Shown here one piece after another: positions 19,598-49,385 of a DNA stretch of 64,000 bases. The notes under the pieces are model-generated. The model ran no database searches. It saw nothing but the letters and a program-made list of their open reading frames with translations, and was not told the origin of the DNA. The stretch's first letter is position 1. Each line of letters starts with the position of its first letter. Both the position numbers and the translations under genes were made by a program. The stretch covers positions 124,001 to 188,000 of the forward strand of contig WGOC01000002.1 in assembly GCA_016124235.1 (NCBI GenBank), given 5' to 3'. The stretch comes from a bacterium (GTDB lineage Bacteria; Verrucomicrobiota; Verrucomicrobiia; Limisphaerales; RI-55).

Positions 19598-20080
19598 ATG
19601 CGCATTCGCTTCAATTCAAAAGGAGGCCGCCAGATGATGGCGGGCGTCACACTGATCGAAGCACTCGTCGCAATGGGGGTCTTTGGCATCACGTTCTTTT
19701 CGCTCTACGGCGGCATGTCGATGGGCATTTCGATCATTCGCGATGCCCGCGAAAACCTGAGAGCAACCCAGGTAATGGTGGAAAAAATGGAAACCATCCG
19801 CCTCTACTCTTGGGATCAAATCACGAACACCACGTTCATTCCCTCGACATTTTCCGAAAGCTATTACCCGGAGGGGCTAAGCGCCGACTCGCAGTCCACT
19901 TACAATGGTTTGGTTTACAGCGGAACTCTTAGAATCACGGGTGGCCCAAGTGGTGTCGCGTACGGCGGCGACATGCGCAGAGTCACCGTCGGCGTTTCCT
20001 GGACTTCGAATGGACGTTCCCACAATCGCACAATGAGCACTTACGTGGCACGACATGGTTTGCAAAACTACATTTACTAG
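19598..20080 (+). CDS. Prepilin-leader minor pilin, PilV-like
   Basis: 160 residues. A basic leader (MRIRFNSKGGRQMMA) is followed by G-V-T-L-I-E-A-L-V-A-M-G-V-F-G, the type IV prepilin cleavage and methylation motif, then a hydrophobic helix (FFSLYGGMSMGISI) and 'ENLRATQVMVEKMETIRLYSW', typical of PilV/GspI-type minor pseudopilins. It is expected to be cut by PilD-type peptidase after the glycine and to sit in the pilus or pseudopilus tip. It is the first gene of a three-gene set with overlaps to the next (26 bases) and then a 4-base ATGA overlap. No SD-like sequence is obvious. Confidence 0.88.
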   Translation: MRIRFNSKGGRQMMAGVTLIEALVAMGVFGITFFSLYGGMSMGISIIRDARENLRATQVMVEKMETIRLYSWDQITNTTFIPSTFSESYYPEGLSADSQSTYNGLVYSGTLRITGGPSGVAYGGDMRRVTVGVSWTSNGRSHNRTMSTYVARHGLQNYIY

Positions 20081-20594
20081 GCGCCGCGCATTCACGCTGG
20101 TCGAATTCATGATCAGCCTGGCCGTAGGCAGCTTGATTTTTCTCGCGGTGGGAGTGCTGGGTATCTACGCGGGGCGCACCTTCGCGGGATTGGTCAATTA
20201 CGCCGAATTGGATGCGAACAGCCGCAATGCGCTTGATTACCTGACACGAGATGTTCGCGGGGTCAAACGCCTTGCCTCGAGCACAGCTACGAGTCTCACC
20301 TTCATTGAATCGGATGGAACAACGCAACTTCAGTACGTCTATTCACCGGATGCCAAGACGCTGACCCGCATCGAAGGCACCAAGTCCAAGGTGCTCCTTA
20401 CCGGCTGCGATAGTTTGTCCTTTTCCATTTATCAGCGGAACCCAATCGCGGGCACTTACAATCAGTTTCCCGCGGGATCGGCCTCCACAGCGAAGCTCGT
20501 CAATGTCACCTGGTCGTGTTCCCGGGACATATTGGGAACGAAGATGAACACCGAGAATGTGCAGACGGCAAAAGTCGTAATTCGTCAGCAATGA
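20055..20594 (+). CDS. Prepilin-leader minor pilin, PilW-like
   Basis: 179 residues. Leader TFTRRRA, then A-F-T-L-V-E-F-M-I-S-L-A-V-G-S-L-I-F-L, the prepilin motif with the invariant Glu. 'NSRNALDYLTRDVRGVKRL' after the helix is the pattern of PilW/GspJ-type minor pilins. The C-terminal half is beta-rich (LQYVYSPDAKTLTRIEG, 'LSFSIYQRNPIAG'). The start lies inside the PilV-like gene and the stop overlaps the next start as ATGA, so the three are co-translated. No major pilin or assembly ATPase is in this window; those would be encoded elsewhere. Confidence 0.88.
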   Translation: MVCKTTFTRRRAFTLVEFMISLAVGSLIFLAVGVLGIYAGRTFAGLVNYAELDANSRNALDYLTRDVRGVKRLASSTATSLTFIESDGTTQLQYVYSPDAKTLTRIEGTKSKVLLTGCDSLSFSIYQRNPIAGTYNQFPAGSASTAKLVNVTWSCSRDILGTKMNTENVQTAKVVIRQQ

Positions 20595-21922
20595 AAGTCA
20601 TGAAATTTACTCGCAACAAATACACCTCGGAAAGGGGAACGGTCCTGTTCGTGACCTTGGTGGCCACCGGAATTTTGGCGGCCGCCTTGGCCAGCTACCT
20701 CAAGCTGGTGAGCACGCAGAACTATTCCGTGGCCCGATCACAGGCCTGGAATCGCGCAATCCCGATCCTAGAAGGTGGCATTGAAGAAGCGATGGCACAG
20801 ATCAATTGGAATCGAACCCCCGCTTCGCTGATTTCCAATGGTTGGGTATTGAGCGGCACCAACTACGTCAAGACCAACTACATTAACGGCGAGTTCTGTA
20901 TCACAAAAGTCGCGTTGCTCGCATGGCCCATCATTCAATCACAAGGCTTCGCCAGGATTCCGCGCCAAAGTGACGGATATGTGAGCCGGACCGTTCGCGT
21001 GACCACCAAAACGACGTCTCCGTTTACGAAAGCCATGGCGGCCGACGGGGTCATCGATTTGAACGGAAACAACGTAGCCACGGACAGCTTCGACAGCCAA
21101 AGCACTACTTATAGTAACAGCGGCCTTTACGATTCGAGTCGCCGGAAAGCCAACGGCGATGTGGCGACAAATGGAGATATCATCAACGTTGGTAACGCCG
21201 ACGTTTATGGCCACGTTTCGACCGGGCCTGGTGGTACAACAGAAGTGAGCAAGAACGGTGCGGTGGGGGATCTGGCCTGGCATACCGCCGGCAATACCGG
21301 CATCCAGACTGGCTTCGCGAATGATGACATGAATGTGGAATTCGCCCCGGTCACGCCACCGTTTACGATTGGCCTTCCTCCAACGACTGGCTTCGTTGGC
21401 ACGACCAACTACGGCTATTTGCTTAGCGGTACGGGCACGCAGTATTCGATGTCGTCACTTAGTATGAGTGGGAATGGAACTGGCAATCAGATGATGGTAA
21501 CCGGTGATGTAACTCTTTATGTTTCCGGAAACGTTTCACTCTCTGGTCAGTCGTCAATCATTGTCGCTCCAGGTGCTCGCCTCCGCATGTATGTTAATGG
21601 CGCGTCAACTTCCTTCGGTGGCAACGGCATTGTCAACGGAAACGGGAACGCGACCAACTTTATGTATTACGGAACGCCGAACAACACGTCAGTATCCATG
21701 ACCGGAAACTCAGCATTTGTCGGAACCGTCTACGCGCCCAGCGCTGATCTGCACCTAGGCGGCGGTGGAAACAACACGTACGACTTCGTTGGTGCCAGCG
21801 TTTCCCGTACGGTGGGCATGAACGGTCGCTTCAATTTCCATTATGACGAGAATCTTGGCCGGATGAACAATGACGCCTTTTTCGTCATCACATCCTGGAA
21901 CGAAATGAGCGCCGGCTTATAG
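20591..21922 (+). CDS. PilX-like exported protein with repetitive beta-rich C-terminus
   Basis: 443 residues from the ATG at 20591 (ATGA overlap with the PilW-like gene). The N-terminus 'RGTVLFVTLVATGILAAALASYLKLVS' is the PilX-type leader and helix, lacking the usual G-F-T-L-I-E motif, followed by 'ARSQAWNRAIPILEGGIEEAMAQI'. The second half is Gly/Asn/Ser-rich with short beta-strand repeats ('DVTLYVSGNVSLSGQSSIIV', 'NNTSVSMTGNSAFVGTVYAP'), like the DUF7305-type domain found in PilX-associated proteins of environmental bacteria. Probably the tip or adhesin element of the minor-pilin complex. The function of the repeat region is inferred only. Confidence 0.82.
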   Translation: MKVMKFTRNKYTSERGTVLFVTLVATGILAAALASYLKLVSTQNYSVARSQAWNRAIPILEGGIEEAMAQINWNRTPASLISNGWVLSGTNYVKTNYINGEFCITKVALLAWPIIQSQGFARIPRQSDGYVSRTVRVTTKTTSPFTKAMAADGVIDLNGNNVATDSFDSQSTTYSNSGLYDSSRRKANGDVATNGDIINVGNADVYGHVSTGPGGTTEVSKNGAVGDLAWHTAGNTGIQTGFANDDMNVEFAPVTPPFTIGLPPTTGFVGTTNYGYLLSGTGTQYSMSSLSMSGNGTGNQMMVTGDVTLYVSGNVSLSGQSSIIVAPGARLRMYVNGASTSFGGNGIVNGNGNATNFMYYGTPNNTSVSMTGNSAFVGTVYAPSADLHLGGGGNNTYDFVGASVSRTVGMNGRFNFHYDENLGRMNNDAFFVITSWNEMSAGL

Positions 21923-21933
21923 CGTCGCGTTTC

Positions 21934-22608
21934 TCACGGCGCCAAGCGCTCGATCTTCCACGGGCCATCACCCAGCGCGGTGTACAGAAAGCGATCGTGC
22001 AACCGACTGGCCCTGCCCTGCCAGAATTCAATCGTCCGCGGCTTCACTCGATAGCCTCCCCAAAACGAAGGTAAGGGTACTTCGCCGTTGGCGAATTTTC
22101 GTTTCATCTCGGCAAACTTCATCTCCAGCAGCTTCCGTGTTGTTACGACACTGCTTTGTTGCGAGGTCCAGGCAGCGAGTCGACTCTCGAACGGTCGCGT
22201 CACAAAGTACTTCAACACCTCGACGTTCGACATGCGCGTGGCGTTGCCATTGATGATCACCTGTCGCTCCAGCTTGATCCACGGAAACAAAAGGGAAACG
22301 TTTGAGTTGGCCGCGATCTGCGTGGCCTTGGTGCTTTCCAGGTTCGTGTAAAAAACAAAACCGCTCCGGTCGTATCCCTTGCACAACACCGTGCGCAAAG
22401 TCGTTTGACCGGTCGGGCTCGCCGTCGCCAGACTCATTGCGTTTGGTTCCAAAATGCCCGCGTCTCGGGCTTGTTGAAACCACGTTTCAAACTGCTCAAA
22501 CGGATCGGAAAGAAGCTGCGCTTCGTCGAGCTCGCCTTGGGTGTAGTTGTTTCGCATCCCAGCCAGCTCATCACCGGGACCCGACTCGTTGTCTGATTCT
22601 AAACTCAT
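21934..22608 (-). CDS. pdxH: Pyridoxamine 5'-phosphate oxidase
   Basis: 224 residues from the ATG at 22608; the frame is open to a GTG at 22695 but the extra residues are not family-like. The enzyme oxidises pyridoxamine or pyridoxine phosphate to pyridoxal phosphate with FMN. Landmarks: 'MRNNYTQGELDEAQLLSDPFEQFETWF' region at the N-terminus, 'LRTVLCKGYDRSGFVFYTN' and 'SKATQIAANSNVSLLFPW' (FMN binding), and the signature F-W-Q-G-R-A-S-R-L-H-D-R-F-L-Y. The length fits the family (about 210-230). It is transcribed toward the pilin genes with an 11-base gap between stops. Confidence 0.95.
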   Translation of the reverse strand: MSLESDNESGPGDELAGMRNNYTQGELDEAQLLSDPFEQFETWFQQARDAGILEPNAMSLATASPTGQTTLRTVLCKGYDRSGFVFYTNLESTKATQIAANSNVSLLFPWIKLERQVIINGNATRMSNVEVLKYFVTRPFESRLAAWTSQQSSVVTTRKLLEMKFAEMKRKFANGEVPLPSFWGGYRVKPRTIEFWQGRASRLHDRFLYTALGDGPWKIERLAP

Positions 22609-23129
22609 AATATGGTTCTGCTTCCGACGGGCCATTTCCTGACAGCGCCGTTCACAGGTCAAATCGTTTTCACGGCGAATCGTCCCTGGAGTCACCCTAA
22701 ATTTACTACTCGGTCAGCCAACTTCTTTGCGATCCGCGTGGCCCAAAGTTAGGACAAATAGCGTCCCAATTTGGCCGAAAATCGTCCTAAATGGATTCAA
22801 AATTGGGCACCGCGCCTGTGCCGGTTGTCGCCGGCGCGACGATGAAGCAATGCTTTTGACCTTATCAGCCCAGTAAATGCCCGCGCGCTAGAATCAAATG
22901 CCCCTAAAGCCCTCAACCTATTTGGTCGTTTAAAGGATACTCCCTCCATGATTTCAGCTTCGACGGCACGACAACTGCCTGAGGGAAATCGCGTTTTGTC
23001 GGTATACGCCGGGCACCGCCGGCGGTGGAACCAACGTGGGAAGCCGCGAAACGCGAATTCGTCGTGAGCGCTATCGAAACCCTCGAAACTCCAATCGGCA
23101 CGCCTGCCAGCGGGCCAGACTCCCTAAAT
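22609..23129. promoter_or_regulatory. Divergent promoter region between pdxH and the coiled-coil gene
   Basis: No gene is supported in these 521 bases. They contain TTAGGAC (22749-22755) facing GTCCTAA (22784-22790), a further CCCTAAAT near 22695 and another just before the ATG at 23130. A perfect 14-base palindrome CACCGCCGGCGGTG (23014-23027) covers the GTG at 23025 that could otherwise be taken as the start of the long downstream frame. Promoter elements could not be assigned with confidence. Confidence 0.35.
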
Positions 23130-26100
23130 ATGACCGCTCGCCGCATCTTGTTGGTGGTGGGCGATCCGATGATCCACCTCAATCTATCGAGCCGGCTGCG
23201 GCTGGCGGGATTTGAAGTCAGCGTCACTTCAGGTACCGAGATGGCGATTCAGAAGTTTCATTCCTACAACCCGCACGCCGTCGTGCTGGATATGGTGGTC
23301 AACGACGATTCAGGAGACGAGGTCATTCGCGAACTACGACGCAATCCGGACGGAAAGGAACTGCCGATTTACGCGTTCTCCAGTTCACCCAATTCCAAAG
23401 CGGTCCGCCGGGCGGTCAAATCCGGTGCGACGAAATTGTTTACCGACAGCGCCACGCCGTTTGACGACATCATTGTCGAACTCACCACAGAACATTCTCA
23501 ACAGATTCCGGACGGAGAAATTCCCGAAGCTCCCGATGCAGCAGCCAAACACGCGGTTGAAAACAAAATCTTCCTGAATGGTTTGCGTAGCGCAATCGCG
23601 CGGGTCCAAAAGCATTTGGAAGTGCTCCTGGAAGCCGAAAGCAACCACGGTCGTTCCGTCGCTTATGGGGAATTGCGTGGTAAACTTCAGACTGTGCTGC
23701 CGCTCGCCCGCCAGTCCGTTCGCCCCGGCGTGTACCGTCTCGCGGGCGCCCTTCACGCGTTATTGAAGGTACTTCACGAAATGCCCGAGTGCGCCACCGA
23801 GACGACGCAACGTACGGTGATCGCCGCGATCGATGTGTTGGGGCGTCTGTGTGACGGCGACAAGCCCCCGCTGGAAAGCAAGGCGTTGGATCTGTCGGCA
23901 GCGATTGGCGATGAAGACATGGTTTCGCGTTCGGTCGTTTGCAGTGCCCTGCGATCTGTCGGTTTCCAGTTCGAGTGTTTCGCTCACTTTTCGTTGGTGA
24001 TGCCTTACCTCGAAAATGGGAAATCGGATTTGGTGATCGTTCATCTCGCACCGGATTCCTCGCCGGATTCTGATTTCGGAAAGAAACTTCGCGCCAAGTC
24101 CAAAACCTCCTGCGTGCCGGTGATTCTGGTGCATGGCGTGAGTGACTTCGAAGACCAGGCCCCCGTCACCAAGGACACGATGGACGAGCTGATCACCAAG
24201 CCGTTCATCTTCATGGAACTTTCTGTCAAGGCCTTGACTCTGGCTTTGAAGAAACGTCTCGCCATCGCTACAGCGAAGCTGGAAGCCGCATCCGGGAGCA
24301 CTGCTGTTGGATCCAAGGGCTCCTTGGCGGCCACGAGCGAAGCGGCGTATGAGGATAATTCCTTCGGCATTGCACAGTACGACGACAGTTCCATGGCGAG
24401 CACTCCGGGCGATATCGGTCAACCCAAACTGCCCCCGTCGCGATTCAAAGGCAGCGCGATCAGTGAGGCGGAAGACCTTGTCGGTGAAGGCGCCACCGCC
24501 ATGCTCACGCTGCGGGAGGAGCTGGATCAAAAACGCCGGGAACGCGAACGATTGGTCAGCCGCATCTTCAACACCGAGCTGGAACTCGAACAGTTGAACA
24601 CGGCACTTGAGGAAGAGCGCGAACATCGTCAGCAACTCGAGCAAATGGTTCAGGATCTCATGGTCGGGCAGGTTCCGCCGACTCCGGGACCAGCCACCAG
24701 TGACCCAAATGCTAGCTTTCAAGCCGATGCATCGCACGTCGCCGCGGAAACGGCAGACGATTCACTTGCGAACTTGCAAATGCAGATCGCGGAATTGAAC
24801 GCCGAAACGGACATTCTCAAAAACGAATTGCAGGCCCGCCACGAGGAGCGTGAACAACTTGCCGCCCGGATCTATCAAGACGAACAAGAACTTGAAGCCG
24901 TACGCAAGCAACTGGAAGAGGAGCGCTCTAATCGCGTCGCCAGCGAAGCCCTGCCTGATGATCAACAATCGACAGATGGGATTGCCGCTGATGAAGCAAC
25001 GGCCGAATTGCGGAAAACCCATGACGAACTGGTCGCCCAATTGGCGGCGGCCCAGCAGGAAAACGAGGCGGAATTCCGGAATCGCGCCGAGCTGGAAGTT
25101 AAGCTCGAAGAGCTGACCAATGATCTGAACCAAGCCCGCGTAGCGCAGCAAAACCTCGAAGCGGAACGCGATCGACTGGAAGCTGAATTCGAACAGAAGC
25201 TGGCCGAAACACGCCAGGCATTGGAAGCAGACCAATCAAACCAGGCAGCACAAGCCCAACTGCAGGAGCAACTCCAGCAGGAGCTGGCCTTGGTTCGCGA
25301 CCGGCAGGCCACGTTGGAGGAAGCCCTGACCAAAGCCGAGGCGGAAGCTTCCGAGAATACGCGACTGAAATCCGAGCTCGAGGAACAACTGCTTCAAACG
25401 CAACAGGCTCTTGAGCAAGCCCGCGCCGAACAGGAGAAAGCGATCACCGAACGAGCGGAAGTGGTGAACGGCCTCCGTGACCAACTTGACCAGCTGACCA
25501 AAGCAGCGGACCAAGCCGAAGCGGCGCGCACCGAAGAGGTCGAGCGCCGGAACAAATTGCAGGCCGAGTTGGACCAACTTTGGAAGGCGCAAGAGGAAAT
25601 CGACCAACAACTGGCGTCGGAAAAAACGAACGCCGCGGAAGCGGATTCACGACAACAGGAACTGCAGGCGCGCTTGCAGGAAGCGTCGCAGCAGCTTGAA
25701 CAATCCCATCGAGCGCTGCAGGAAGCCGAGGAGCTGAAGCGCAGCGAAGCCGATCGTCGGGCCGCGTTGGAGAAGCAGTTGGCCCAGGTTCAAGAGGAAC
25801 TCGATGCGAAACTCAACGCCCAAAGCCAGCTCGCAGCGGAGACCAACGAGCAGAAGGCCGATCTCGAGAACCGCTTGAAGCACCTCGAAGAAGAGCTACC
25901 GCAAGCTCGGCAAAAAATCTCCGAGCTGACGCAGGAAAAAGAGCGCGTCCAGGCGGAATTTGCGAACCAATTGAAGGCCGCCACCGAAGCCACCGCGCTG
26001 GCCGAGGAAAAGGCCAGAAAAGAAGTCGCGCGAAGCGAGGAACTCGAATCGGATCTCGCCAAAAATCGTGATGCCGCCCACGCACTCAAAGCGCGTCTCG

Positions 26101-28751
26101 AAACTCAACAAGATCGTATCGCCGAAACTCTCGCTGCTCGTGAGGATCTTGAGCAAAAGCTAAATTCAGCCACGGCCGAGATCGATGCCGCAATCGCCGC
26201 GCGGCAAAAGTTAATTGAAGAACACAACACGGTGGTGGCGCAACTTGAGGAACGTCTCCAAAAAGCGGAACAGAACGCCAACCAAGTTCGGCAGGATCTC
26301 GAGAAGGAATCGAACCGTAACCAGCAATTGCGGGCCGAGGCGGAAAAACTACAGGCCTCACGTGACGAACTCGAAAAGCGTCTGCAGGCAGAATCGGAGA
26401 AGCACCAGCAATCGGCGACCACACTTTCGCAACTCGAACAAAAGTTGGCGCAAAAATCTGCGGAACACGAAGACATTGTCAGGCGCCTCAAGGAGCTGGA
26501 AAACTCAAAGTCACACGCCGAAGCGGAACTTGGGCAAAAACTAGAGGCCACCACGCAAGAACTCACGTCCGCGCAAAATGAACGCGAATCCGCAAAACAG
26601 CGCGCTCTCAAACTGGGCGAGGAAATTGAGCATCTGCAGAAAGCCAAGGAATCGCTTGAAGCATCCCTGACTGACGAACGCAATGCCTTGAGTCAGGCAA
26701 AAGAACGCGGCAACCGATTTGAGACCAAGCTCTCGCAGGTTCAGGTACTGTGCGATGAATTGAACGGTAAGCTCTCGGCGGAACAGGAGGCAACGGCTTC
26801 GCTAACTCGCGAAAAAGCAGAACTCGAACAACGTCTCGCCGCAGAAACCAAGGCCTGGCAGGCGGCCAAACAGAATTCAGAGCAGCAGGTCGCCACTTGG
26901 AAACAACGGGACGCGGAATACAACCGGGAGCGCAATGCGTTGCGGACGGCTGCCGCCGAAGCCGAGGAAGCCCGGAAACAAGAACTTGCCCGCGCGAACA
27001 AATTTGAGGCCGAAGTCACCGAACTCTGGCAGGTCAGGGACGACCTGAAAGCACGCGTCGCTTCCGGTCAGAAGATCATCGGGGATCTGCACCAACAGCG
27101 GGCCGCGCTGGAACGACAACTCGAAGAAGTCGCCACGCAGCTGGAGCAAACTCGCAATGACCTCGCGTCCCTGCAAAACAACTTGCGCGCGGTCGAAGAA
27201 AAATCACAACACCTCGCCGACGAGAATGCCGCACTCAAATCGGAAGCCGCCGTCTCCGCCGAGAAACAGCGGCTTCATGAAACGGAACTGGCATCCATGG
27301 ACCGCCGGGTCCGCGATACGATCGCCTCATTGGCGCGCACCACGGCAGAATTGGAATCCGAACGCGGTGATCGTCGTCGCATTGAGCAGCGCGCCGCCGG
27401 CCTGTCAGCGCAGTTGCAGGATCTCCATCGCGAACTGAACAGCCATCTGGAGATTGAACGCGAGAACAAGACTCGCCTGACGGAGCTGGAGCAGGAGATC
27501 GCAGAGCGGGTCAATGAACTTAACGCCGAGCGAACCGCCGGCGAAAAGGAGCGAGGCGAGCGTCGCAACGTGGAACAACGCGCCGCCGCCCTGGCGTCGC
27601 AGATTGAATCTCTGCGCGAAGAACTGATCGAACGCCAGAAGCTCGAAAAGGAAAACCAATCACGCATTTCCAATTTGGAGCAGCAACTCCGCGCTCGCGA
27701 AGAAAGCCTTGTCCGGGTCACCCAGCACCTGGAAACCGAGCGCGAAGAACGTCGTCGTGTCGAGCAGCGCGCTGAAGCCCTGGTGGCCCAAACGCAGAAA
27801 TTGCAAGATGAGCTGGCCCAGTCTGGTCAGCGCGAGAAGGAACAGCTCAACCGTATCACCCAGCTTGAAGAGCACGACACCAAACAGTCTTCTGAAATTG
27901 ATCGGTTGCAGAACGGACTCGCCGGCGAGCGAAGCGAGCGCACCAAGTCCGAGGACCGGGCCAAGTCGCTCGCGGCACAGCTGCGCGATCTGCATAATGA
28001 ACTGAACGAACATCTCCGGATGGAGAAGGAGGCCGGCGCCCGGATTTCCGAGCTTGAAGGTCAGTTGCATGAAAAGCAGAGCGTGATCACGGAACTGCAA
28101 TCCGATTTGGAGAAGGAGTCTTCCGACCGCGAAATGGCGGAAGAACAATTGCGAGCGGCCGGTGATATCGCCGGGAAACTCAAGCAATACCAATCCAGCT
28201 TTGACGACGCCCGGAAGGCGTTTGAAACCACTCAGCGCGAGCTGGAATCCCGCTTGGAGGTCGCCGCCACTGAATTGCGCGAACAGGAAGCGACGCTGGA
28301 AAAGGAACAACAGGAAAAGAGCGCTCTGAAAAAGGCCCTGGAAACGGCCCAACGGGAAGTCGAACAACAGAATCAGCAAAAGTCCATCGAGCTTTCCAAA
28401 CTGCAATCCGCCCTGCTGGTCGAATCCATGGAACGCCGCCGACTCGAAGGCGACGCGATGCACTCGCGTTATGCATCACTCCAGAGCAGTCGTTCCGGCC
28501 GCACGTTGGTCAACGGCTTCCGCCGGCAACTGGAAAAACCTGTCGATCAGGTGATGCAGAACGCCCGCAAGATGCTTTCGTTCGAAATGAACGAGAGTCT
28601 CAAAGAAGTTGCCGAAGCGCTGCTCGAGTCCGCCGTAACCTTGCAGAACAATGTTCGCGAATGCGACATGGTTGAAGTTGGAACTGAGCCGGCACCGACC
28701 GATGAAAGTGAAAATGTTGGGAACCCGGCCACGACTGAAAGTGCTGAATAA
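23130..28751 (+). CDS. Giant receiver-receiver-coiled-coil protein (AglZ/FrzS-like architecture)
   Basis: 1,873 residues from the ATG at 23130, chosen because the first domain starts there (ARRILLVVGDPMIHLNLSSR); a GTG at 23025 is possible. Residues 1-120 form a receiver-like domain with Asp54 in A-V-V-L-D-M-V-V-N-D but only one residue (Asp12) of the usual acidic pair. A second, more degenerate receiver-like domain is at about 265-385 (AIGDEDMVSRSVVCSALRS ... 'ELITKPFIFMELS'). From about residue 450 to 1790 the sequence is almost unbroken heptad coiled coil, rich in Glu, Gln, Ala, Leu and Arg, with recurring 'ERGDRRRIEQRA'-type blocks. It ends in a short globular part (SGRTLVNGFRRQLEKPVDQV). 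No membrane segment. This layout is known from AglZ and FrzS, motility scaffolds of Myxococcus; any similar role here is inference. Confidence 0.85.
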   Translation: MTARRILLVVGDPMIHLNLSSRLRLAGFEVSVTSGTEMAIQKFHSYNPHAVVLDMVVNDDSGDEVIRELRRNPDGKELPIYAFSSSPNSKAVRRAVKSGATKLFTDSATPFDDIIVELTTEHSQQIPDGEIPEAPDAAAKHAVENKIFLNGLRSAIARVQKHLEVLLEAESNHGRSVAYGELRGKLQTVLPLARQSVRPGVYRLAGALHALLKVLHEMPECATETTQRTVIAAIDVLGRLCDGDKPPLESKALDLSAAIGDEDMVSRSVVCSALRSVGFQFECFAHFSLVMPYLENGKSDLVIVHLAPDSSPDSDFGKKLRAKSKTSCVPVILVHGVSDFEDQAPVTKDTMDELITKPFIFMELSVKALTLALKKRLAIATAKLEAASGSTAVGSKGSLAATSEAAYEDNSFGIAQYDDSSMASTPGDIGQPKLPPSRFKGSAISEAEDLVGEGATAMLTLREELDQKRRERERLVSRIFNTELELEQLNTALEEEREHRQQLEQMVQDLMVGQVPPTPGPATSDPNASFQADASHVAAETADDSLANLQMQIAELNAETDILKNELQARHEEREQLAARIYQDEQELEAVRKQLEEERSNRVASEALPDDQQSTDGIAADEATAELRKTHDELVAQLAAAQQENEAEFRNRAELEVKLEELTNDLNQARVAQQNLEAERDRLEAEFEQKLAETRQALEADQSNQAAQAQLQEQLQQELALVRDRQATLEEALTKAEAEASENTRLKSELEEQLLQTQQALEQARAEQEKAITERAEVVNGLRDQLDQLTKAADQAEAARTEEVERRNKLQAELDQLWKAQEEIDQQLASEKTNAAEADSRQQELQARLQEASQQLEQSHRALQEAEELKRSEADRRAALEKQLAQVQEELDAKLNAQSQLAAETNEQKADLENRLKHLEEELPQARQKISELTQEKERVQAEFANQLKAATEATALAEEKARKEVARSEELESDLAKNRDAAHALKARLETQQDRIAETLAAREDLEQKLNSATAEIDAAIAARQKLIEEHNTVVAQLEERLQKAEQNANQVRQDLEKESNRNQQLRAEAEKLQASRDELEKRLQAESEKHQQSATTLSQLEQKLAQKSAEHEDIVRRLKELENSKSHAEAELGQKLEATTQELTSAQNERESAKQRALKLGEEIEHLQKAKESLEASLTDERNALSQAKERGNRFETKLSQVQVLCDELNGKLSAEQEATASLTREKAELEQRLAAETKAWQAAKQNSEQQVATWKQRDAEYNRERNALRTAAAEAEEARKQELARANKFEAEVTELWQVRDDLKARVASGQKIIGDLHQQRAALERQLEEVATQLEQTRNDLASLQNNLRAVEEKSQHLADENAALKSEAAVSAEKQRLHETELASMDRRVRDTIASLARTTAELESERGDRRRIEQRAAGLSAQLQDLHRELNSHLEIERENKTRLTELEQEIAERVNELNAERTAGEKERGERRNVEQRAAALASQIESLREELIERQKLEKENQSRISNLEQQLRAREESLVRVTQHLETEREERRRVEQRAEALVAQTQKLQDELAQSGQREKEQLNRITQLEEHDTKQSSEIDRLQNGLAGERSERTKSEDRAKSLAAQLRDLHNELNEHLRMEKEAGARISELEGQLHEKQSVITELQSDLEKESSDREMAEEQLRAAGDIAGKLKQYQSSFDDARKAFETTQRELESRLEVAATELREQEATLEKEQQEKSALKKALETAQREVEQQNQQKSIELSKLQSALLVESMERRRLEGDAMHSRYASLQSSRSGRTLVNGFRRQLEKPVDQVMQNARKMLSFEMNESLKEVAEALLESAVTLQNNVRECDMVEVGTEPAPTDESENVGNPATTESAE

Positions 28752-28781: not shown

Positions 28782-30044
28782 TCACCAGATCCAGAGCGCA
28801 AGTAGTCCGGCGACCAGCGTGACGCCCAGCACCACCGAAACACGTCGCTGAAGCAGGGGCGCTCCCAGCGTCAAGGCAATCACCAGCTTTGTCAGCGTGT
28901 TCGCCACCGCCGCCACCACGATCACTTGTGCAGCCAACGATTCCGCTAAATTCCCCGTGCGAACGGCATCGATCGTACTCAGCGTGATTGCGTCCACATC
29001 CGTCAGACCCGATAAAAAGCTAACCGCAAACAGGCCGCGCGTGACTTCACTCTCCGCGACCGCTCGCACGACCAACGTGACGACGCCATAAATGGCGGCA
29101 AACTTGATCGCCGTACCGAGTCGGAGAGGATTCGTCAATTGCGGCGCTTCCACCGGTTCTGTTTTGGATCGACGGACAAAAAATACCCAGAATCCGGCGG
29201 CGATTCCCGGCAGCGACATCAGCAGCAAGGGCAACCAGACATAGGCGAACAGTTCCCGCCGCAACGTCAGGACGACGGCTGCCACGCGCGCCAGCATGAC
29301 CGTGCAAGCCAGCACCACCGCCAACGCGTAGCCGGCGCTCGCCCCTGGATCCTCCTTGCTGCGCCGACTGAACGCGAGTGTCGTGGCCGTGCTCGACGCC
29401 AGCCCTCCGACCAGACCTGTCAGCGCGATCCCCGCCCGCGTTCCGATGAATCGCATCAACAGGTAGCCGACAAATCCCAACCCCGAGATCAACACCACCA
29501 TCAACCACATGGAATAGGGATTGAACGCCTCGTAGGGGCCAAAACCTCGGTTCGGCACGATGGGCAAAATCACGCCCGTGATCGCCACAAACTGCAACGT
29601 CGAACGAATGTCCGCTTCCGTGAATTTGCGCGTCCAGGCATGGATCGGTTGCTTGAGTCCCAGCAACAGCATCGTGATGGCGGAAAGCACCACCGCCGCC
29701 TGCGTGTGTTGCCAGTACACCAAACCACCGACCAGGAAGGTCAACAGTGACGCCGCAGTCGTGGTGAAACCGATCTTGAAATCGATACGGCCAAACACCC
29801 CACGAAGAATCAAATGAACGCCCACCAGTAGAAGGGTCGCCACAAATGCCCCGGTGACGTGGCGGTCGGAAATGAACGCCGAACTCGTCCCCAGCAATGC
29901 CCACAACACAAACGTTCGCAATCCGGCAAAACCGTCCTTCGGCCGCTGCTCATGTTGTTTGCCCCACTGCCGGATGGTTCCGATCAACGCCCCCAGACTG
30001 GCGCTGACAATCAGCGACGGCAGGATCTCCGGCATCGTGTTCAT
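28782..30044 (-). CDS. MgtC/SapB family membrane protein with DUF4010 domain
   Basis: About 420 residues from the ATG at 30044; a GTG at 30071 adds nine. The N-terminal part 'LIVSASLGALIGTIRQWGK ... AGLRTFVLWALLG' is the MgtC/SapB fold start (G-A-L-I-G ... R-T-F). The rest has many membrane helices with the DUF4010 signatures 'GPYEAFNPYSMWLMVVLISG', 'GLVGGLASSTATTLAFSRRS' and 'SFLSGLTDVDAITLS'. About twelve membrane segments in total. Such proteins are inner-membrane and of unknown transport function, distinct from the virulence MgtC. Its 3' end faces the coiled-coil gene (30 bases between stops). Confidence 0.85.
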   Translation of the reverse strand: MNTMPEILPSLIVSASLGALIGTIRQWGKQHEQRPKDGFAGLRTFVLWALLGTSSAFISDRHVTGAFVATLLLVGVHLILRGVFGRIDFKIGFTTTAASLLTFLVGGLVYWQHTQAAVVLSAITMLLLGLKQPIHAWTRKFTEADIRSTLQFVAITGVILPIVPNRGFGPYEAFNPYSMWLMVVLISGLGFVGYLLMRFIGTRAGIALTGLVGGLASSTATTLAFSRRSKEDPGASAGYALAVVLACTVMLARVAAVVLTLRRELFAYVWLPLLLMSLPGIAAGFWVFFVRRSKTEPVEAPQLTNPLRLGTAIKFAAIYGVVTLVVRAVAESEVTRGLFAVSFLSGLTDVDAITLSTIDAVRTGNLAESLAAQVIVVAAVANTLTKLVIALTLGAPLLQRRVSVVLGVTLVAGLLALWIW

Positions 30045-30253
30045 CAACCCAATAATCTTCGTTCCGGACACGAAATCAACTCGTGCGAATTTGTCCGATG
30101 TTGGTCACCCTTGGTGATTCAATATTGCGCCTCCGAGCAAACAGGCTTGAGCATCAAACCACCTCTCGGCCAAGGTTCCCTGGTGAACCAAAACTCGCCC
30201 AACGCACCTGCCTGCCTGAAGTACCGACGCTTCAACTCCAACATCTCCTGCTT

Positions 30254-41798: not shown

Positions 41799-43739
41799 AT
41801 GAAGCTTGCTGGAACCATCATGCTGCTGATTGCCACTCTGTCGGTAAGCGCCGACGAGTTCTCGCGGTGGACGTGGCGGGTGCCCGACCCACCAGCGGCA
41901 TTGTTCTCGAAGGTCGTCTACGCACAGGACCAGTTTGTCGCCGTGGGAGATTTGGGCTACATCATGACCTCGACCAATGGACTGAAATGGAATTTGGAGG
42001 TGTCGCCCACCACCAATCAATTGCGCAGTGTCATTTATACCGACCAGTTCGTTGCTTCCGGCGACAAGGGAACCATCATTACGTCGCCCGATGCCCGAAC
42101 CTGGCAGTTGACGACGGCGGGAGATTCACAGATCGAAGCGTTGGCCTACGGCAATGACATCTACATGGCGCTGGACAGCCGGGGCAATCTGTTCCGATCG
42201 AATGACGCGCGCCAATGGATTCCCGTTGGCGATCCCATCAACAAGGGCGGCCGCGACATGACCTTCGGCAGTGGGTTGTTCGTCACCGTGGGATTGAATG
42301 GGTTGATCGCCACGTCGACCAATGGTGTGAACTGGGTGCAAAGAACCTCCGGCACCACCGGCATCCTGTTCTCCGTGGCCTATGGCGACGGACTTTTCGT
42401 CGCCGTCGGAGCCGAAGGAACCCAAGGAGTTATCCTGACCTCCAATGACGGGATATATTGGCAACTACAATTCGTGGATAAACCGCTTTCGGATGTCACT
42501 TTCAATGATGGTGAATTCTTGATCATCGGTGGGTCCTTCATGGGGTCGGGCACGTCGTTGACGTCAAGTGATGGCATTTATTTCAACGAGCCCGCCAGTG
42601 ATCCAGGTTTGGATTGGAGCCTCACCGGAGTGACATGCGGCGGCGGAGCCTGTGTCGCCGTCGGCGCCGGAATGTTCATTTCATACGACGGCGGTCAGAC
42701 TTGGAGTGACATCACGGTCGGACCACGTGCGCCGATCTATGGATACGCGCAAAAAAATAGCACTTTGGTCGGCGTTGGTGGCAGCGGTGTCATCGTCACC
42801 ACAACAAACGGTGTGGATTTTACCAACCAGCAGATTCTGAGTGACAAGGCGTGGCTGAGCGTTTGTGCGGGTGAACCGGGATTTGCCGCTGTCGGCGTCG
42901 GAGGGAGAATCGCGTTCTCGCCGGACGGATTTGACTGGACGAATATAACCGGAGCGACACTGGGAGAACTTCCGGCGATTGCCTTTGGCGGCGGCATCTA
43001 CGTCGCGGTGGCTTGGGAAGCCGTCGGCAAGCCTTATGGCTATTTTGTCACCTCGACCAACGGACTGGACTGGGTGGAGCGACGGCCATTTGTGGACACC
43101 TATATCAATCGGACGATCACTTATGGAGCTGGCCAATTCGTGGCGGGCGGCTACGACGGCAAGATCTACACGTCGACCAATGGAATAGATTGGACCGAGC
43201 GACTGACGGGCGTCGGTGGCAACACCATTCCAGTCGCCTATTTGAACAACGGGTTCATCGCTTCGACCGGTGGCGGAATCTTGCATTCCACTGACGGGCT
43301 GACATGGACGTTCACCGGCGGGGAAACGCCCAACGCCCGGGCTATGGCCTATGGCAACGGGCTGTACGTCGCAGTCACCGGCGCGTGGCCCGACGTGCTG
43401 TGGAGTTCACCGGATGGAATCACGTGGAAACGGGAGAAGTTCGGTGCGCGTGACCTCTCGGCCGTGACCTATGCGTTCGACTCGTTTTATATTTCGGGTG
43501 CGGTTATCCAGTCGCAATCCTCGCTGATCCCAACACTGGAACATGTGACTCAAGGGAACGAGCAATTGGACGCGAGTGTGTTTGGCGAAATTGGCCGGGA
43601 TTACGAACTTCAAAGCTCGACGGATTTGAAGACGTGGCAGCACGAGAGTGATTACAACCAGGGCCAACGCATCCAACCGCTCACCCTGCCCACCGGTCCA
43701 AGCCAGAAGTTTTACCGGGTGAAACTGAAACAACCGTGA
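41799..43739 (+). CDS. Cassette 1 large exported beta-propeller protein
   Basis: 646 residues. Signal peptide MKLAGTIMLLIATLSVSADEF, then 'SRWTWRVPDPPAALFSKVVY', a start shared by all three large cassette proteins. The body is built of repeated units of the type G-x-F-V-A-V-G-x-x-G-x-I-x-T-S-x-N-G-x-x-W, as in Ycf48/BNR-type propellers. I count at least seven. The C-terminal segment 'GEIGRDYELQSSTDLKTW' followed by 'LTLPTGPSQKFYRVKLKQP' is almost the same in the three copies and resembles the module in other secreted proteins here. No enzymatic residues were identified. It is probably at the cell surface and may pair with the small protein from the same cassette. Confidence 0.85.
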   Translation: MKLAGTIMLLIATLSVSADEFSRWTWRVPDPPAALFSKVVYAQDQFVAVGDLGYIMTSTNGLKWNLEVSPTTNQLRSVIYTDQFVASGDKGTIITSPDARTWQLTTAGDSQIEALAYGNDIYMALDSRGNLFRSNDARQWIPVGDPINKGGRDMTFGSGLFVTVGLNGLIATSTNGVNWVQRTSGTTGILFSVAYGDGLFVAVGAEGTQGVILTSNDGIYWQLQFVDKPLSDVTFNDGEFLIIGGSFMGSGTSLTSSDGIYFNEPASDPGLDWSLTGVTCGGGACVAVGAGMFISYDGGQTWSDITVGPRAPIYGYAQKNSTLVGVGGSGVIVTTTNGVDFTNQQILSDKAWLSVCAGEPGFAAVGVGGRIAFSPDGFDWTNITGATLGELPAIAFGGGIYVAVAWEAVGKPYGYFVTSTNGLDWVERRPFVDTYINRTITYGAGQFVAGGYDGKIYTSTNGIDWTERLTGVGGNTIPVAYLNNGFIASTGGGILHSTDGLTWTFTGGETPNARAMAYGNGLYVAVTGAWPDVLWSSPDGITWKREKFGARDLSAVTYAFDSFYISGAVIQSQSSLIPTLEHVTQGNEQLDASVFGEIGRDYELQSSTDLKTWQHESDYNQGQRIQPLTLPTGPSQKFYRVKLKQP

Positions 43740-44162
43740 TCCAAATGCGGAATGCAGAATTCCGAATGAGGAGTTGGCAAATCGGAGTTGGATGACAGGA
43801 GACAGGAGATGGGAGTTGGGAAATCGGGCAGAAGCGTTCGCGCTAATTCGCGCAATTCGCGTAAAGCCAGGTCCCCATGTGTCAGCGATCGAAGAATAAC
43901 GATACCCTGCACCGTCATACGATGAGGTGCCGAAAAATTTCTGTCTCGGGGGTGCTGGTGCGTTGGAGGGCCGTAAACATTGGTCGCTTTTGAGTGTCTC
44001 AGGGAAAGCCCGGATGGACAAAACCCTCAAGTTGCCGTTTTTTCAGGGAAAGCCCCGATAGACGGAACGCAAAAAAATCGTGTAATGATGAAAGCAAGCT
44101 CACCCAAGGTCGTATCGGAGTACGGAGGAGCGAGACTGTTCAAACCAAAACCAAGAGGTTAT
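43740..44162. repeat. Shared 3' flank of cassette 1 and control region of cassette 2
   Basis: The first part (43740-43937) is a shared flank also present at 46571-46759 and, as its last copy, at 49386-49535; it includes short AATTCGCG units that differ in number. From 43938 to 44162 the sequence matches the cassette 1 control region, with boxes AGGGAAAGCCCGGAT (44001-44015) and AGGGAAAGCCCCGAT (44045-44059), again 44 bases apart. Long frames read through it (from 43980) are not thought to be genes. Confidence 0.75.
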
Positions 44163-44543
44163 ATGAAAAAATCATTACTACGCAGAATGGCCCCGCTCGT
44201 GGCGGGGGTGTTGTTTGTCGTGCCAGTTGTTACAGCATCGGCGGCTTACACAGGGATTAGTTGGCCGGTGTATTATCCAGATAATCAGTATTGCACTGTC
44301 TCGGTAAATTCGAGCCCGTCTTACCCGTACATTGCGCCGAAGGCTGACAGCGAAAACTACATCTGGTGGTTCGACGGTACTCGAACCTATGCATATTACT
44401 CGGACCATTATACCACTGCCACGGTCTATCCTCTAACCGTTACGAATGTTTGTGTCTACGTGTATGGCGATGACTCGTCCGGTGACGTATCGTACGCCAT
44501 CAGCGATCGTGATACAGGGGTATATATTTGGAACGGGTCCTAG
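44163..44543 (+). CDS. Cassette 2 small exported protein
   Basis: 126 residues from the ATG at 44163. Signal peptide MKKSLLRRMAPLVAGVLFVVP, same as the first 15 residues of the other two copies, then a divergent beta-rich mature domain: 'AYTGISWPVYYPDNQYCTV', 'DSENYIWWFDGTRTYAYYSD' and 'CVYVYGDDSSGDVSYAISD', ending VYIWNGS. The Y-V-Y-G-D-D-x-S-G-D/N-x-S-Y-A block and the terminal N-G-P/S are shared by the family. No cysteine pair and no anchor motif are evident. It is an unknown family. It lies 53 bases before the large gene, with the hairpin between. Confidence 0.75.
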   Translation: MKKSLLRRMAPLVAGVLFVVPVVTASAAYTGISWPVYYPDNQYCTVSVNSSPSYPYIAPKADSENYIWWFDGTRTYAYYSDHYTTATVYPLTVTNVCVYVYGDDSSGDVSYAISDRDTGVYIWNGS

Positions 44544-44559
44544 AAAAATCGATTACGTG

Positions 44560-44587
44560 CTCCCGCCTAATTTTCGTTAGGCGGGAG
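44560..44587 (+). promoter_or_regulatory. Intercistronic hairpin, cassette 2
   Basis: A perfect 11-bp stem CTCCCGCCTAA (44560-44570) with TTAGGCGGGAG (44577-44587), loop TTTTCG. It is in the same position as in cassettes 1 and 3 but of different sequence. It ends 9 bases before the ATG of the large gene, so it may also shield the ribosome site. No T-run follows. Confidence 0.75.
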
Positions 44588-44596
44588 TCGATTGCC

Positions 44597-46570
44597 ATGA
44601 GAATAACAATCACCTGCTTGCTTGGCTTGATGAGTTTGTGCCACGCCGACGAATTCTCTCGGTGGACGTGGCGGGTACCGAGTCCTCCGGCGATTCTCTG
44701 GGAGAAGGTGGCCTTTGCCGACGGCCAGTTCATTGCCGTTGGGGATCTCGGTTCTATCATGACTTCGACCAATGGCCGCGAGTGGTTCCTGGAAAACACG
44801 GTTACCACCAACCGCCTTCTGAATGTCTTCTATGGCGACCGCTACGTGGCTTCGGGCAATCGGGGAACGGTGGTGGCGTCACCGGATGCTCATGAGTGGC
44901 GGCTCGCCAGCTTTCCGAACGATCACACCCTCCTGGCCATGGCCTACGGCAACGACGTCTACGCCGCGTTCGACGTTTACGGAAATTTCTACCACTCGAC
45001 CAATGCGCTGAATTGGGAGACGGTCGACCCGCCCGCCCCAACGACCGGGGCGGACATGGCCTTTGGCGGTGATCAGTTCGTGATGGTCGGTGCTGCGGGG
45101 CTAATCATGACTTCCACGAATGGCTTGGACTGGGTGCAGCGGCAGTCGAATACGACGGGTGATTTTTTGTCGGTCGCTTTTGGAGCGGGCAAATTCGTTG
45201 CGGTGGGTAGCGAGATCGACGGCGACGGAAATGCCAACAGTTTTATTGAGACTTCCTTCAATGGAATCGATTGGTTTTTTCAGTCGTTGAACACTGATGT
45301 GTTGGTTAAAGACCTGACCTACGCCGACGGGCGTTTTGTCATTGTCGGCGGGGATGGTTACTCGGGTGGGTCCATTTCGCTGAATTCGAGTGATGGCATC
45401 TATTACAATTCAGCTGCCGGGGACAATGGTTTTGGCGGGTCAGACGTCAATGGCGTCGCGTGCGGCAATGGCGTATGTGTCGCAGTCGGACAAGGGGTCT
45501 TCAATTCAACCGACGGCGGTTTGACTTGGACGAACATCAACTCAGGACCGTTGGCGACGATTTATGACTTTGCGCAAAAGGATGGCACCGTAGTCGGGGT
45601 TGGTGACGATGGTGTGATCCTGACCACGATCGACGGCCGCGCGTGGGTCAACCAAGTTGTTGGAAGCAGCGCCGGATGGCGATCGCTTAGCGTGGGAAGC
45701 GGTGTGTTTGTGGCCGCTGGGCTGGACGGAGCCCTGGCCAGTTCCCCGGACGGACTCGGATGGACCAGTTATGCCAACGTGACTGCGGGGAACATCTGGT
45801 CGGTCGCGTACGGCGCCGGCCGGTTTGTGGCCGTGGCGTGGGAAGCGACGGGAACGCCGTACGGCTTTTTTGTCACCTCGACCAACGGGACGGACTGGGA
45901 AGTAATCAAACCGCTGGGGAATGTGGGCATAAACGCTTCAATCGCGTTCGGAGCCGGTGCGTTCGTGGTGTTCGCAAATAATGGGTACTATTACTATTCG
46001 CAAGACGGATTGACATGGACCGCGCGCAATACCGGGTACGGCCACTACGTGCTGCCCGTGTTCTATTGCAACAACGAGTTCTTGGGGGTGGAGCCATCTG
46101 TTGGAGTTTTGACTTCAAGCGACGGGCTTTCGTGGGTTCAGCATGAAACCGATATTTCTGGCGTGAGACACGTTTCCCATGGGAACGGAATCTATCTGGC
46201 TGTGGGAGATCTCCCCGGATCCGGGAAGATGTGGAGTTCGGCAGACGGGCTAAACTGGAAGACGGAAAAGATCGGTGTGACCGATCTTCGTTCGTCGATT
46301 TACGCCTACGATTCATTTTATGTTGGCGGCACAGTCCTTCAATCCGAGACTTCGCTGATCCCGTCGCTGGAACAAGTCACTCAGGGGAACGGGCAGTTGA
46401 ACGCGACCGTCTTCGGCCGGATTGGCCGGGATTACGAACTGCAAAGCTCGACGGATTTGAAGACCTGGCAGCACGAGAGCGATTACAACCAGGGCCAGCG
46501 CATCCAGCCACTCGCCCTGCCCACCGGCCCAAGCCAGAAGTTTTATCGCGTGAAACTGAAGGAACCGTGA
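44597..46570 (+). CDS. Cassette 2 large exported beta-propeller protein
   Basis: 657 residues from the ATG at 44597 (the frame is open to 44528 but that extension covers the hairpin). Signal peptide MRITITCLLGLMSLCHADEF, then 'SRWTWRVPSPPAILWEKVAF' as in cassette 1. The G-x-F-V-x-V-G-x-x-G-x-I-x-T-S-T-N-G-x-x-W repeats are the same type, but the middle of the protein has diverged from the other copies. It ends 'GRIGRDYELQSSTDLKTW' and 'PTGPSQKFYRVKLKEP'. Exported; no catalytic signature. The natural ligand and location are unknown. Confidence 0.85.
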   Translation: MRITITCLLGLMSLCHADEFSRWTWRVPSPPAILWEKVAFADGQFIAVGDLGSIMTSTNGREWFLENTVTTNRLLNVFYGDRYVASGNRGTVVASPDAHEWRLASFPNDHTLLAMAYGNDVYAAFDVYGNFYHSTNALNWETVDPPAPTTGADMAFGGDQFVMVGAAGLIMTSTNGLDWVQRQSNTTGDFLSVAFGAGKFVAVGSEIDGDGNANSFIETSFNGIDWFFQSLNTDVLVKDLTYADGRFVIVGGDGYSGGSISLNSSDGIYYNSAAGDNGFGGSDVNGVACGNGVCVAVGQGVFNSTDGGLTWTNINSGPLATIYDFAQKDGTVVGVGDDGVILTTIDGRAWVNQVVGSSAGWRSLSVGSGVFVAAGLDGALASSPDGLGWTSYANVTAGNIWSVAYGAGRFVAVAWEATGTPYGFFVTSTNGTDWEVIKPLGNVGINASIAFGAGAFVVFANNGYYYYSQDGLTWTARNTGYGHYVLPVFYCNNEFLGVEPSVGVLTSSDGLSWVQHETDISGVRHVSHGNGIYLAVGDLPGSGKMWSSADGLNWKTEKIGVTDLRSSIYAYDSFYVGGTVLQSETSLIPSLEQVTQGNGQLNATVFGRIGRDYELQSSTDLKTWQHESDYNQGQRIQPLALPTGPSQKFYRVKLKEP

Positions 46571-46984
46571 TCCGAATGCGGAGTGCAGAATTCTGAATGA
46601 GGAGTTGGCAAATCGGAGATGGATGACAGGAGACAGGAAATGGGAGTTGGGAAATCGGGCAGAAGCATTCGCGCTAATTCGCGTAAAGCCAGGTCCCCAT
46701 GTGTCAGCGATCGTAGAATAACGATACCCTGCACCGTCATACGATGAGGTGCCGAAAAATTTCTGTCTCGGGGGGTGCAGGTGCGTTGGCGGGCCGTAAA
46801 CATTGGTCGCTTTTGGGTGTCTCAGGGAAAGCCCGGATGGACAAAACCCTCAAGTTGCCGTTTTTTCAGGGAAAGCCCCGATAGACGGAACGCAAAGAAA
46901 TCGTGTAATGATGAAAGCAAGCTCACCCAAGGTCGTATCGGAGTATGGAGGAGCGAAACAAACAAACCAAAACCAAGAGGTTAA
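46571..46984. repeat. Shared 3' flank of cassette 2 and control region of cassette 3
   Basis: Flank 46571-46759, then the control region 46760-46984 with boxes at 46824-46838 and 46868-46882, 44 bases apart. Nearly identical to 43740-44162. The frame from 46803 to 46988 is a by-product of the repeat and ends across the true ATG at 46985. Confidence 0.75.
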
Positions 46985-47356
46985 ATGAAAAAATCATTAC
47001 TACGCAGAATCGCCCCGCTCGTGGCGGGGATCTTGTTGGCGGGTCAAACGTTGAGCGTGTTGGCAACATATCCGTATATTGAATCCATCACCAAGGGAAG
47101 CACCTCGGCGAGTGCTAGCGTTGCATATGGTGGCGGAGTACCACCGGGTCACACAGGACCGCGTGATCCAGGCACCTACGGAAATTACTACTGGTGGGTC
47201 GACCAAAACTTTTACACCTCAAACACGCTCAGCATTTCGATTCCATACGGAACAACAAACGTGAATATTTACGTTTATCCCGACGACCTAAGTGGCAACT
47301 ACTCCTACGCGTATGTAAACGATGTTTGGGGAACTTACATCTACAACGGGCCGTAG
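46985..47356 (+). CDS. Cassette 3 small exported protein
   Basis: 123 residues. Signal peptide MKKSLLRRIAPLVAGILLAGQ, then 'LSVLATYPYIESITKGSTSA', a Gly/Pro-rich stretch (YGGGVPPGHTGPRDPG), 'NYYWWVDQNFYTSNTL', 'VNIYVYPDDLSGNYSYAYVN' and the ending IYNGP. It is the intact relative of the interrupted copy at 41373 (shared T-Y-P-Y-I). Exported, unknown family. Its downstream partner gene is itself interrupted, so this small protein may have outlived its partner. Confidence 0.75.
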   Translation: MKKSLLRRIAPLVAGILLAGQTLSVLATYPYIESITKGSTSASASVAYGGGVPPGHTGPRDPGTYGNYYWWVDQNFYTSNTLSISIPYGTTNVNIYVYPDDLSGNYSYAYVNDVWGTYIYNGP

Positions 47357-47378
47357 TAAGCAACCAGGTGGACTCGCA

Positions 47379-47410
47379 AATTCCCGGGAGCGCCAATGCT
47401 CCCGGGAATT
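47379..47410 (+). promoter_or_regulatory. Intercistronic hairpin, cassette 3
   Basis: A perfect 13-bp stem AATTCCCGGGAGC (47379-47391) with GCTCCCGGGAATT (47398-47410), loop GCCAAT. It lies 22 bases after the small gene's stop and 16 bases before the ATG of the large gene. The sequence is unrelated to the hairpins of cassettes 1 and 2. Confidence 0.75.
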
Positions 47411-47426
47411 CAGCCTGCCGTTCCTG

Positions 47427-49385
47427 ATGAATTCACTCCTTACAACCTTGCTGGCGGTGGCATTTGTGTTCGAGTTGCGCGCAGACGAGTTCTCTCAATG
47501 GGAATGGCTGGTGCCTACTCCAGTTGGCGATCACCTGGCTGCGATCACATTTGATGGCACGCGATTTATAGCCGTCGGCGAGATGGGAGTGATACTGACA
47601 TCGACGAACGGCGCTGACTGGCGTCTGACGTACACAGACACCACGAATAAACTGTGGGGCGTTACTGTCGGAGATGCCACGGTACTCGCTTATGGGGACA
47701 ACTCCACCGTGCTGGCCTCCAGCGGTGACGCGACGACTTGGAGATCCGTTGAGACTGGCTCCGACACGGCGATTCACGCATTGACATACGGCAACAACAC
47801 GTACGTCGCCTTGGATTTCTCGTGGCGCGTTTTTATTTCGACGAATGCCGACACTGGATGGCATGAGACGTTGACGCCTCCGGACGGCGCGGCAAATGAC
47901 ATTGAGTTTGGCGACGGAAAGTTCGTCGCGGTTGGTTGGAATGGCCTGATCGCGACGTCAAGCGATGGTGTGGGTTGGACCACTCAAGTTTCTGGTACCG
48001 ATGGTCCAATTTGGGCCGTAACTTATGGCGATGGCAAATGGGTGGCTGTGGGAGGTGAAGAGGATACTGGCTTCATCCTCACTTCGTTCAATGGAACTGA
48101 CTGGTTCCTGCAACTAACGGATACGCCGATGTACTCAGTGACATACGGTCCCTACGGCTTCATCGCCACCGGCGGCGATGTCATGGGATCCGGTGTATCC
48201 ATGAATTCATCGGATGGAATTTATTTCTCCGGTGGCGAGCCGGGCGGATCGGGCCTTTCATCGGTGCCCGCCGGCGTCGCTTGCGGCAATGGTGTTTGTG
48301 TTGCAGTGGGCGGGCCGGGACAAATTTGGACGACAACCGACGGGTCGGCTTGGGTATCCCAGTCCTCTGGCCAGGATCTGACCGTGACGTCACTGGTTTC
48401 CAACGGCGCAAAACTGGTTGGCGTCGGTGGAAAAGGCACCATCGTGACAAGTAGTGACGGACTTCAATTTGAGTCACACATCTATTCGACGAATGAAAAC
48501 TATTTCAAAGTGATCGCCACCGATCACGGGTTCGTAGCAGCGGGCGCAAACGGTATCATTCGGACATCAGCCGATGGGACAGATTGGAATTTGGAGAATA
48601 CCAGCTCGGATGCGACTCTCAAGGATCTTGCCTTCGGCGGCGGCAAGGTTGTAGCGATAGGATGGAACGCATCAGGCAAGCCCTATGGTCAGTTTCTGGT
48701 GCGTGATTCAAATGCCGATTGGCAGGCGGTATGGCCAGCTGCGGACGAATTCATCAATTCCTCGATCGCGTTCGGCAATGGCCATTTTGTGGCGTCAGGA
48801 TATTATGGCGAAGTCTGGATTTCCGATGATGGAACTCAGTGGCAAAAGTCGCAAACGGGAATCGGTGAGACGATCCTGCCCATCCAGTTCATAAACGGAC
48901 AGTTTATCGGACTCACCTCCGGCTCTGTCGGCTTTTCCAACGACGGTGTAAATTGGAACTTTACGACCACGACGCCACCAGCGGTCAAACAGTTGGCATT
49001 CGGCAATGGCCTGTATATCGCAGCGGGTTGGAATCGTGGCGGGATTGAAATCTCCGAGGATTGAATTCATTGGACGAGTCGACCGATGAAGACGCTCAGC
49101 CTCACCTCGGCGGCCTACTTTAGAGATTCATTCTATGTGGCAGGGTTCATCCTGAAGTCGACTTCGTCACTGATTCCGACGATCGAAGATTTTGGGCGAA
49201 AGGGCAACGAAGTGAGCTTTCAAATGTTCGGCCGGATCGGCCGGGACTACGAACTGCAAAGCTCGACGGATCTGAAGACCTGGCAGCACGAGAGCGATTA
49301 CAACCAGGGCCAGCGCATCCAGCCGCTCACCCTGCCCACCGGTCCAAGCCAGAAGTTTTATCGCGTGAAACTGAAGGAACCGTGA
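47427..49385 (+). pseudogene. Cassette 3 large beta-propeller protein, interrupted by in-frame TGA
   Basis: Starts MNSLLTTLLAVAFVFELRADEF, then 'SQWEWLVPTPVGDHLAAI' and the same propeller repeats (RFIAVGEMGVILTSTNG). The frame stops at a TGA at 49062-49064 after 545 residues. The same frame resumes directly (I-H-W-T-S-R-P, then a Met at 49086) and runs to 49385 with the family C-terminus 'GRIGRDYELQSSTDLKTW ... KFYRVKLKEP'. In the intact cassette 1 gene the equivalent codon is GGA (S-P-D-G-I-T-W against S-E-D-stop-I-H-W). Total length with the stop read through is 652, matching its paralogues (646 and 657). Either a nonsense mutation, so the C-terminal module is lost, or readthrough. Confidence 0.75.

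Follow-up and report, generated by a model that had tools for sequence, protein, structure and literature searches.

A very long coiled-coil protein of a verrucomicrobial bacterium is an apparent derivative of a REC-Hpt-REC family

A bacterium of the order Limisphaerales (phylum Verrucomicrobiota) encodes a giant protein that, judged from its sequence, appears to be a rare, coil-fused, and largely dead derivative of a family of REC-Hpt-REC proteins. The core family itself is common in, and concentrated in, this verrucomicrobial order. The gene lies in the window, the 64,000-nucleotide stretch of contig WGOC01000002.1 (assembly GCA_016124235.1) analyzed here (Table 1), and its product is made up, from the N to the C terminus, of a receiver (REC1), an Hpt-like domain, a second receiver (REC2), a short coiled coil, a long coiled coil, and a DHp-like hairpin, with no catalytic domain found. 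Because only one of the signaling parts still has its phosphorylation residue, the giant is most likely a long tether and not an enzyme, and we propose with moderate confidence that it is a two-component-derived, largely phosphorylation-independent tether or scaffold. A preliminary description had correctly recognized the N-terminal receiver, the degenerate second receiver, the roughly 1,300 residues of coil, and the scaffold-like character of the protein. It missed two parts that homology and structural models now indicate: an Hpt-like domain without its histidine between the receivers and a degenerate histidine-kinase DHp hairpin beyond the coil.

Table 1. Coordinates of the giant gene, its predicted domains, its neighbors, and two related loci. 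Positions without a handle are those of the window.
Feature	Position	Strand	Basis or remark
Giant gene, whole	23130..28751	+	1,873 aa; ATG start; no internal stop
REC1, residues 1-123	23130..23498	+	Pfam Response_reg, residues 6-103, E 1.4e-13
Candidate Hpt-like four-helix domain, residues about 137-241	23538..23852	+	Homology to short relatives with Pfam Hpt middles
REC2, residues 255-386	23892..24287	+	NCBIfam response-regulator models, residues 259-378
First short coiled segment, residues about 447-510	24468..24659	+	Sequence; Pro-containing linkers on both sides
Long coiled coil, residues about 527-1803	24708..28538	+	Sequence, periodicity
Four 63-residue (9-heptad) repeats, residues 1415-1666	27372..28127	+	Periodicity common to the G001 orthologue
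Putative degenerate DHp (HisKA-type) hairpin, residues about 1770-1845	28437..28664	+	Profile searches, register, AF2, Foldseek
pdxH	21934..22695	-	Neighbor of giant; also beside the G001 orthologue
DUF4010/MgtC-like membrane protein gene	28782..30071	-	Named by eye; homologue also beside the G001 orthologue
Three pilin-like genes (two N-methyl pilin-like, one DUF7305)	19598..21922	+	Pfam; 1.2-3.5 kb upstream of giant
Same-genus orthologue of giant (G001)	L039:10809-14978 / L107:6215-10384
G081 ORF containing two REC-Hpt-REC cores in succession	L111:1-3926	-	Cut by contig end

GC content by codon position is coding-like along all 1,873 codons of the giant. Its start is not certain, because an in-frame GTG upstream, at 23025, would lengthen the protein by 35 residues. 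The orthologue in the same-genus genome G001 has 1,389 residues and is 38% identical to the giant in the core and 47 to 49% identical at the C terminus. Since this orthologue has the same layout, and since the repeats of the coil exceed those in heptad-block shuffles, the layout of the giant is not a product of chance.

The N-terminal core retains a single intact phosphorylation residue. REC1 keeps the phospho-acceptor Asp54 and Asp12 and has Ser at the Thr/Ser site; its first acidic residue is Gly11 and the conserved Lys is gone, and G001 shares the loss of one acidic residue and of the Lys. The phospho-Asp is also kept in G001 and in the giant of G039, and Glu stands there in two other members. 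In the Hpt-like domain, Gln187 occupies the position of the His in short relatives. REC2 was not reported by Pfam; it is recognized by NCBIfam models and by its alignment with the intact receivers of relatives, and it has His305 in place of the phospho-Asp and keeps the Lys (TKPF). An AF2 model of residues 1 to 387, built from only three sequences, resolves REC1 as a clear (beta-alpha)5 receiver that matches solved receivers with VIA Z scores of 18 to 20 (receivers are the only VIA matches listed for this model) and predicts four helices for the Hpt-like domain (pLDDT about 80). Structure prediction of the two receivers thus gives a clear fold for the first, and the second is modeled with low confidence and poorly resolved.

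The last 110 residues of the giant have relatives in G001, G009, G039, and G081, and this C terminus is present in 5 of 293 genomes. A profile of these five sequences, run against 384 genomes from the class, matched its own members and then a series of weaker sequences from an E value of 3.5e-8 (the best) downward; all 27 of the weaker matches that were translated are kinase DHp segments, in which SHE(I/L)RTP falls in register with RRQLEKPV of the giant. Arg1799 stands at the phospho-His position, which is Arg or Lys in five of five members, and Pfam finds no ATPase domain (HATPase_c) after the hairpin. A sequence search of the PDB gave the DHp domain of ERS1 as the best match (E 0.037). AF2 predicts two helices, the first of them long, joined by a turn (pLDDT 92); with this model, each of the top ten Foldseek matches is a histidine kinase or a DHp domain (weak E values, 0.06 to 0.8) and the top VIA matches are GacS and ERS1 (Z 9.0 and 8.5), subject to the caveat that helical hairpins match many folds. 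In these two hybrid histidine kinases the linker helix and HisKA-type DHp are in register with the hairpin of the giant, which, unlike them, has Arg for the phospho-His and lacks the ATPase domain. Because the Foldseek E values are weak and Pfam HisKA does not match single C-terminal sequences, the case for a DHp origin rests on the profile searches and the register. The hairpin holds invariant residues across members from four families and stays conserved while total length ranges from 1,136 to 1,873 residues. G113 was rejected as a further member (E 2.8e-4), as its match falls within an ordinary hybrid histidine kinase (L070:7787-10360).

The long coil has a periodicity of about 3.5 residues and contains only two prolines (609 and 924), and E, K, R, Q, and D make up 43 to 55% of each 100 residues from 600 to 1800. 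Repeats of 63 residues are found in the giant and G001, of 95 residues in the giant and G039, and of 81 or 88 residues in the clade B proteins described below, all of them above heptad-block shuffles. If the long coil forms one continuous rod, its length would be about 190 nm (1,277 residues at 0.1485 nm).

A search with residues 129 to 387 of the giant recovered homologues in 42 of 58 relatives. Besides the G001 orthologue, the best matches to the core are mostly proteins of 380 to 490 residues, 400 to 460 being the usual size of family members, in which two receivers flank a middle domain, Pfam Hpt in four of the five tested, and they are homologous to the core of the giant over its full length. 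Unlike the giant, these short proteins have no coil and mostly keep their phospho-residues (REC1 Asp in 27, REC2 Asp in 28, and Hpt His in 23 of 28 short forms); the four window-type cores (clade A, below) have all lost both the Hpt His and the REC2 Asp. Of the short forms for which neighboring sequence was retrieved, most adjoin a hybrid histidine kinase, as judged by motif scan; no hybrid kinase adjoins the giant, the nearest kinase in the window being a HisKA_3 protein 4 kb off. The absence of a short form from the giant's own genome means little, because that genome is 56% complete. A survey of 194 genomes drawn from the phylum, at a strict cutoff of 1e-80, found the core family in only two genomes besides the giant's own. 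Within the collection of papers searched, none names REC-Hpt-REC proteins.

In a tree, the coil-fused proteins fall into two clades. Clade A, which has long branches and carries the DHp-like end, comprises the window giant, G001, G009, and the first core of G081. Clade B comprises G028, G043 (2,599 residues), G169 (2,429 residues), G208, and the second core of G081; its members resemble the giant in joining REC-Hpt-REC to a long, repeat-built coil and differ from it in keeping the Asp of each receiver. A further difference is that the two whose sequences are complete, G043 and G169, have no DHp-like end. A single origin of the two clades is not rejected (AU p 0.15). The G081 reading frame combines both types, with a degenerate first core (A) followed by a second (B) with intact Asp residues. 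The 41 residues at its end are identical to those with which the stretch L069 begins; L069 holds the coil and the DHp-like end, and we infer from this identity that L111 and L069 join. The giant of G039 consists of REC, PAS, and coil and has neither Hpt nor REC2.

The preliminary description likened the giant to the Myxococcus xanthus motility scaffolds FrzS and AglZ, a comparison that stands as an analogy and not as a demonstration of common descent. All three proteins begin with a receiver whose active site is altered, continue into a coiled coil, and finish in a distinct C-terminal end; unlike FrzS and AglZ, the giant has an Hpt-like domain flanked by two receivers, a DHp-like C terminus, a retained REC1 Asp, and no conserved motility-gene neighbors (pilin genes were looked for). 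The much greater length claimed for it does not hold against AglZ, which has about 1,400 residues and is close to the 1,389-residue orthologue. It does hold against FrzS, whose coil comprises 258 residues (PMC1974792). The receiver of FrzS has no phosphorylation site (Ala53, Ser10), and this atypical receiver acts without phosphorylation in a coiled-coil protein (PMC1974792).

In the mechanism that we favor, a REC-Hpt-REC phosphorelay protein would have been fused to a very long coiled coil ending in a leftover histidine-kinase DHp hairpin whose ATPase domain is gone. Two parallel chains would come together as a rod no longer than about 190 nm, the DHp-like bundle serving as a C-terminal dimer cap and the receiver and Hpt heads lying at the opposite end. 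The dead domains may be docking surfaces for kinases or regulators and would keep signaling proteins in one position or at a set spacing; the sole remaining phospho-site, that of REC1, may tune docking. Such a use would be like that in FrzS and AglZ, coiled-coil proteins guided by an atypical receiver that has no need of phosphorylation. If this is true, the receiver-plus-coil scaffold idea, best known from Myxococcus, reaches Verrucomicrobiota, with a scaffold whose parts come from the two ends of the phosphorelay, and the natural series from the live short form through half-dead clade B to mostly dead clade A lends itself to the study of how scaffolds arise from catalytic signaling proteins. 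Possible but doubtful is a bolder version, in which a whole phosphorelay on one chain, largely without its chemistry, lengthened by 63- and 95-residue repeats to about 190 nm and became a docking rod or a ruler of cytoskeletal type, possibly twice in the order.

The same evidence bears on several other explanations. Phosphorylation may matter more than we propose, because REC1 keeps Asp54, and the giant would then be a working signaling hub in which a hybrid kinase phosphorylates REC1 and the coil relays a conformational change to partners. The retained Asp54, Asp12, and Ser of REC1, the Asp in G001 and G039, and the two Asp residues of clade B agree with such a hub; we nonetheless consider it unlikely, given that both the giant and G001 lack the conserved Lys and one of the acidic residues, and given the Glu at the phospho-Asp position in two other members and the lack of an adjacent hybrid kinase among the relatives of the giant examined. 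Quite unlikely, in our view, is the suggestion of the preliminary description that the giant is a polar scaffold serving pilus-based (type IV) movement or the sensing of surfaces. That idea drew on a receiver-plus-coil layout as in FrzS (PMC1974792) and on neighbors that are indeed present beside the giant: pdxH, a sensor kinase gene (HisKA_3), a regulator gene (LuxR-type), and the pilin-type genes. At the G001 locus (L039/L107), however, the giant lies between a DUF4010-like gene and a PQQ-type gene, with pdxH and then a cytochrome c gene beyond the former, and neither a pilin nor a kinase nor a regulator is present; homologues of the three pilin-like genes are likewise absent beside the other coil-fused relatives in the stretches fetched, and no homologue of the HisKA_3 kinase was found beside relatives. 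On synteny, the pilus neighborhood was rejected as a clue to function, and as far as these data go the proximity of giant and pilins is a local coincidence. The giant's own genome has pilT, but so do almost all others (57 of 58 relatives score above the PilT cutoff, versus 5 of 293 genomes with the giant), and since pilT is near-universal the presence or absence of pili cannot decide the role of the giant. Nor does gene neighborhood point to what the giant would scaffold.

A purely structural rod, SMC-like or cytoskeletal, whose signaling heads are irrelevant leftovers, would suit a protein dominated by its coil and built of nine-heptad repeats. We rate it as very unlikely, as the C-terminal hairpin is conserved despite the variation in length; the NCBIfam SMC matches lie far below cutoff and are of the kind that coil composition alone produces, and SMC kinship was rejected on that ground. 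Decay of a relic gene would explain the loss of active residues in several domains, yet it is extremely improbable for a gene with 1,873 open codons, coding-like GC by codon position throughout, and invariant C-terminal residues in members from four families. The tether or scaffold remains the reading that we prefer.

Four further observations concern genes near these proteins or elsewhere in the window. Immediately upstream of the G039 giant, and on its strand, lies a 110-residue gene (L067:7583-7915, minus strand), a possible operon partner; it has no counterpart beside other giants and no family match above cutoff, and it was set aside as a partner. Directly downstream of the G009 giant is another possible operon partner, a cyclase-like gene (L068:146-943, minus strand; ADIRDFTSY and a weak match to Guanylate_cyc), set aside likewise as it has no counterpart beside other giants. 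Genome G011 encodes a protein (L043:8118-10367, minus strand) with an apparent N-terminal signal sequence and two regions resembling Hpt-REC2, close to pilin-like genes at L043:12216-13324. Within the window, three similar proteins are encoded at 41799-43739, 44528-46570, and 47322-49064, with the motif ...ADEFS(R/Q)W(T/E)W.VP.P... close to their beginning; the short genes with MKKSLLRR(M/I)APLVAG that lie between them number at least two, and the region 41799-49064 looks like a tandemly duplicated pair.
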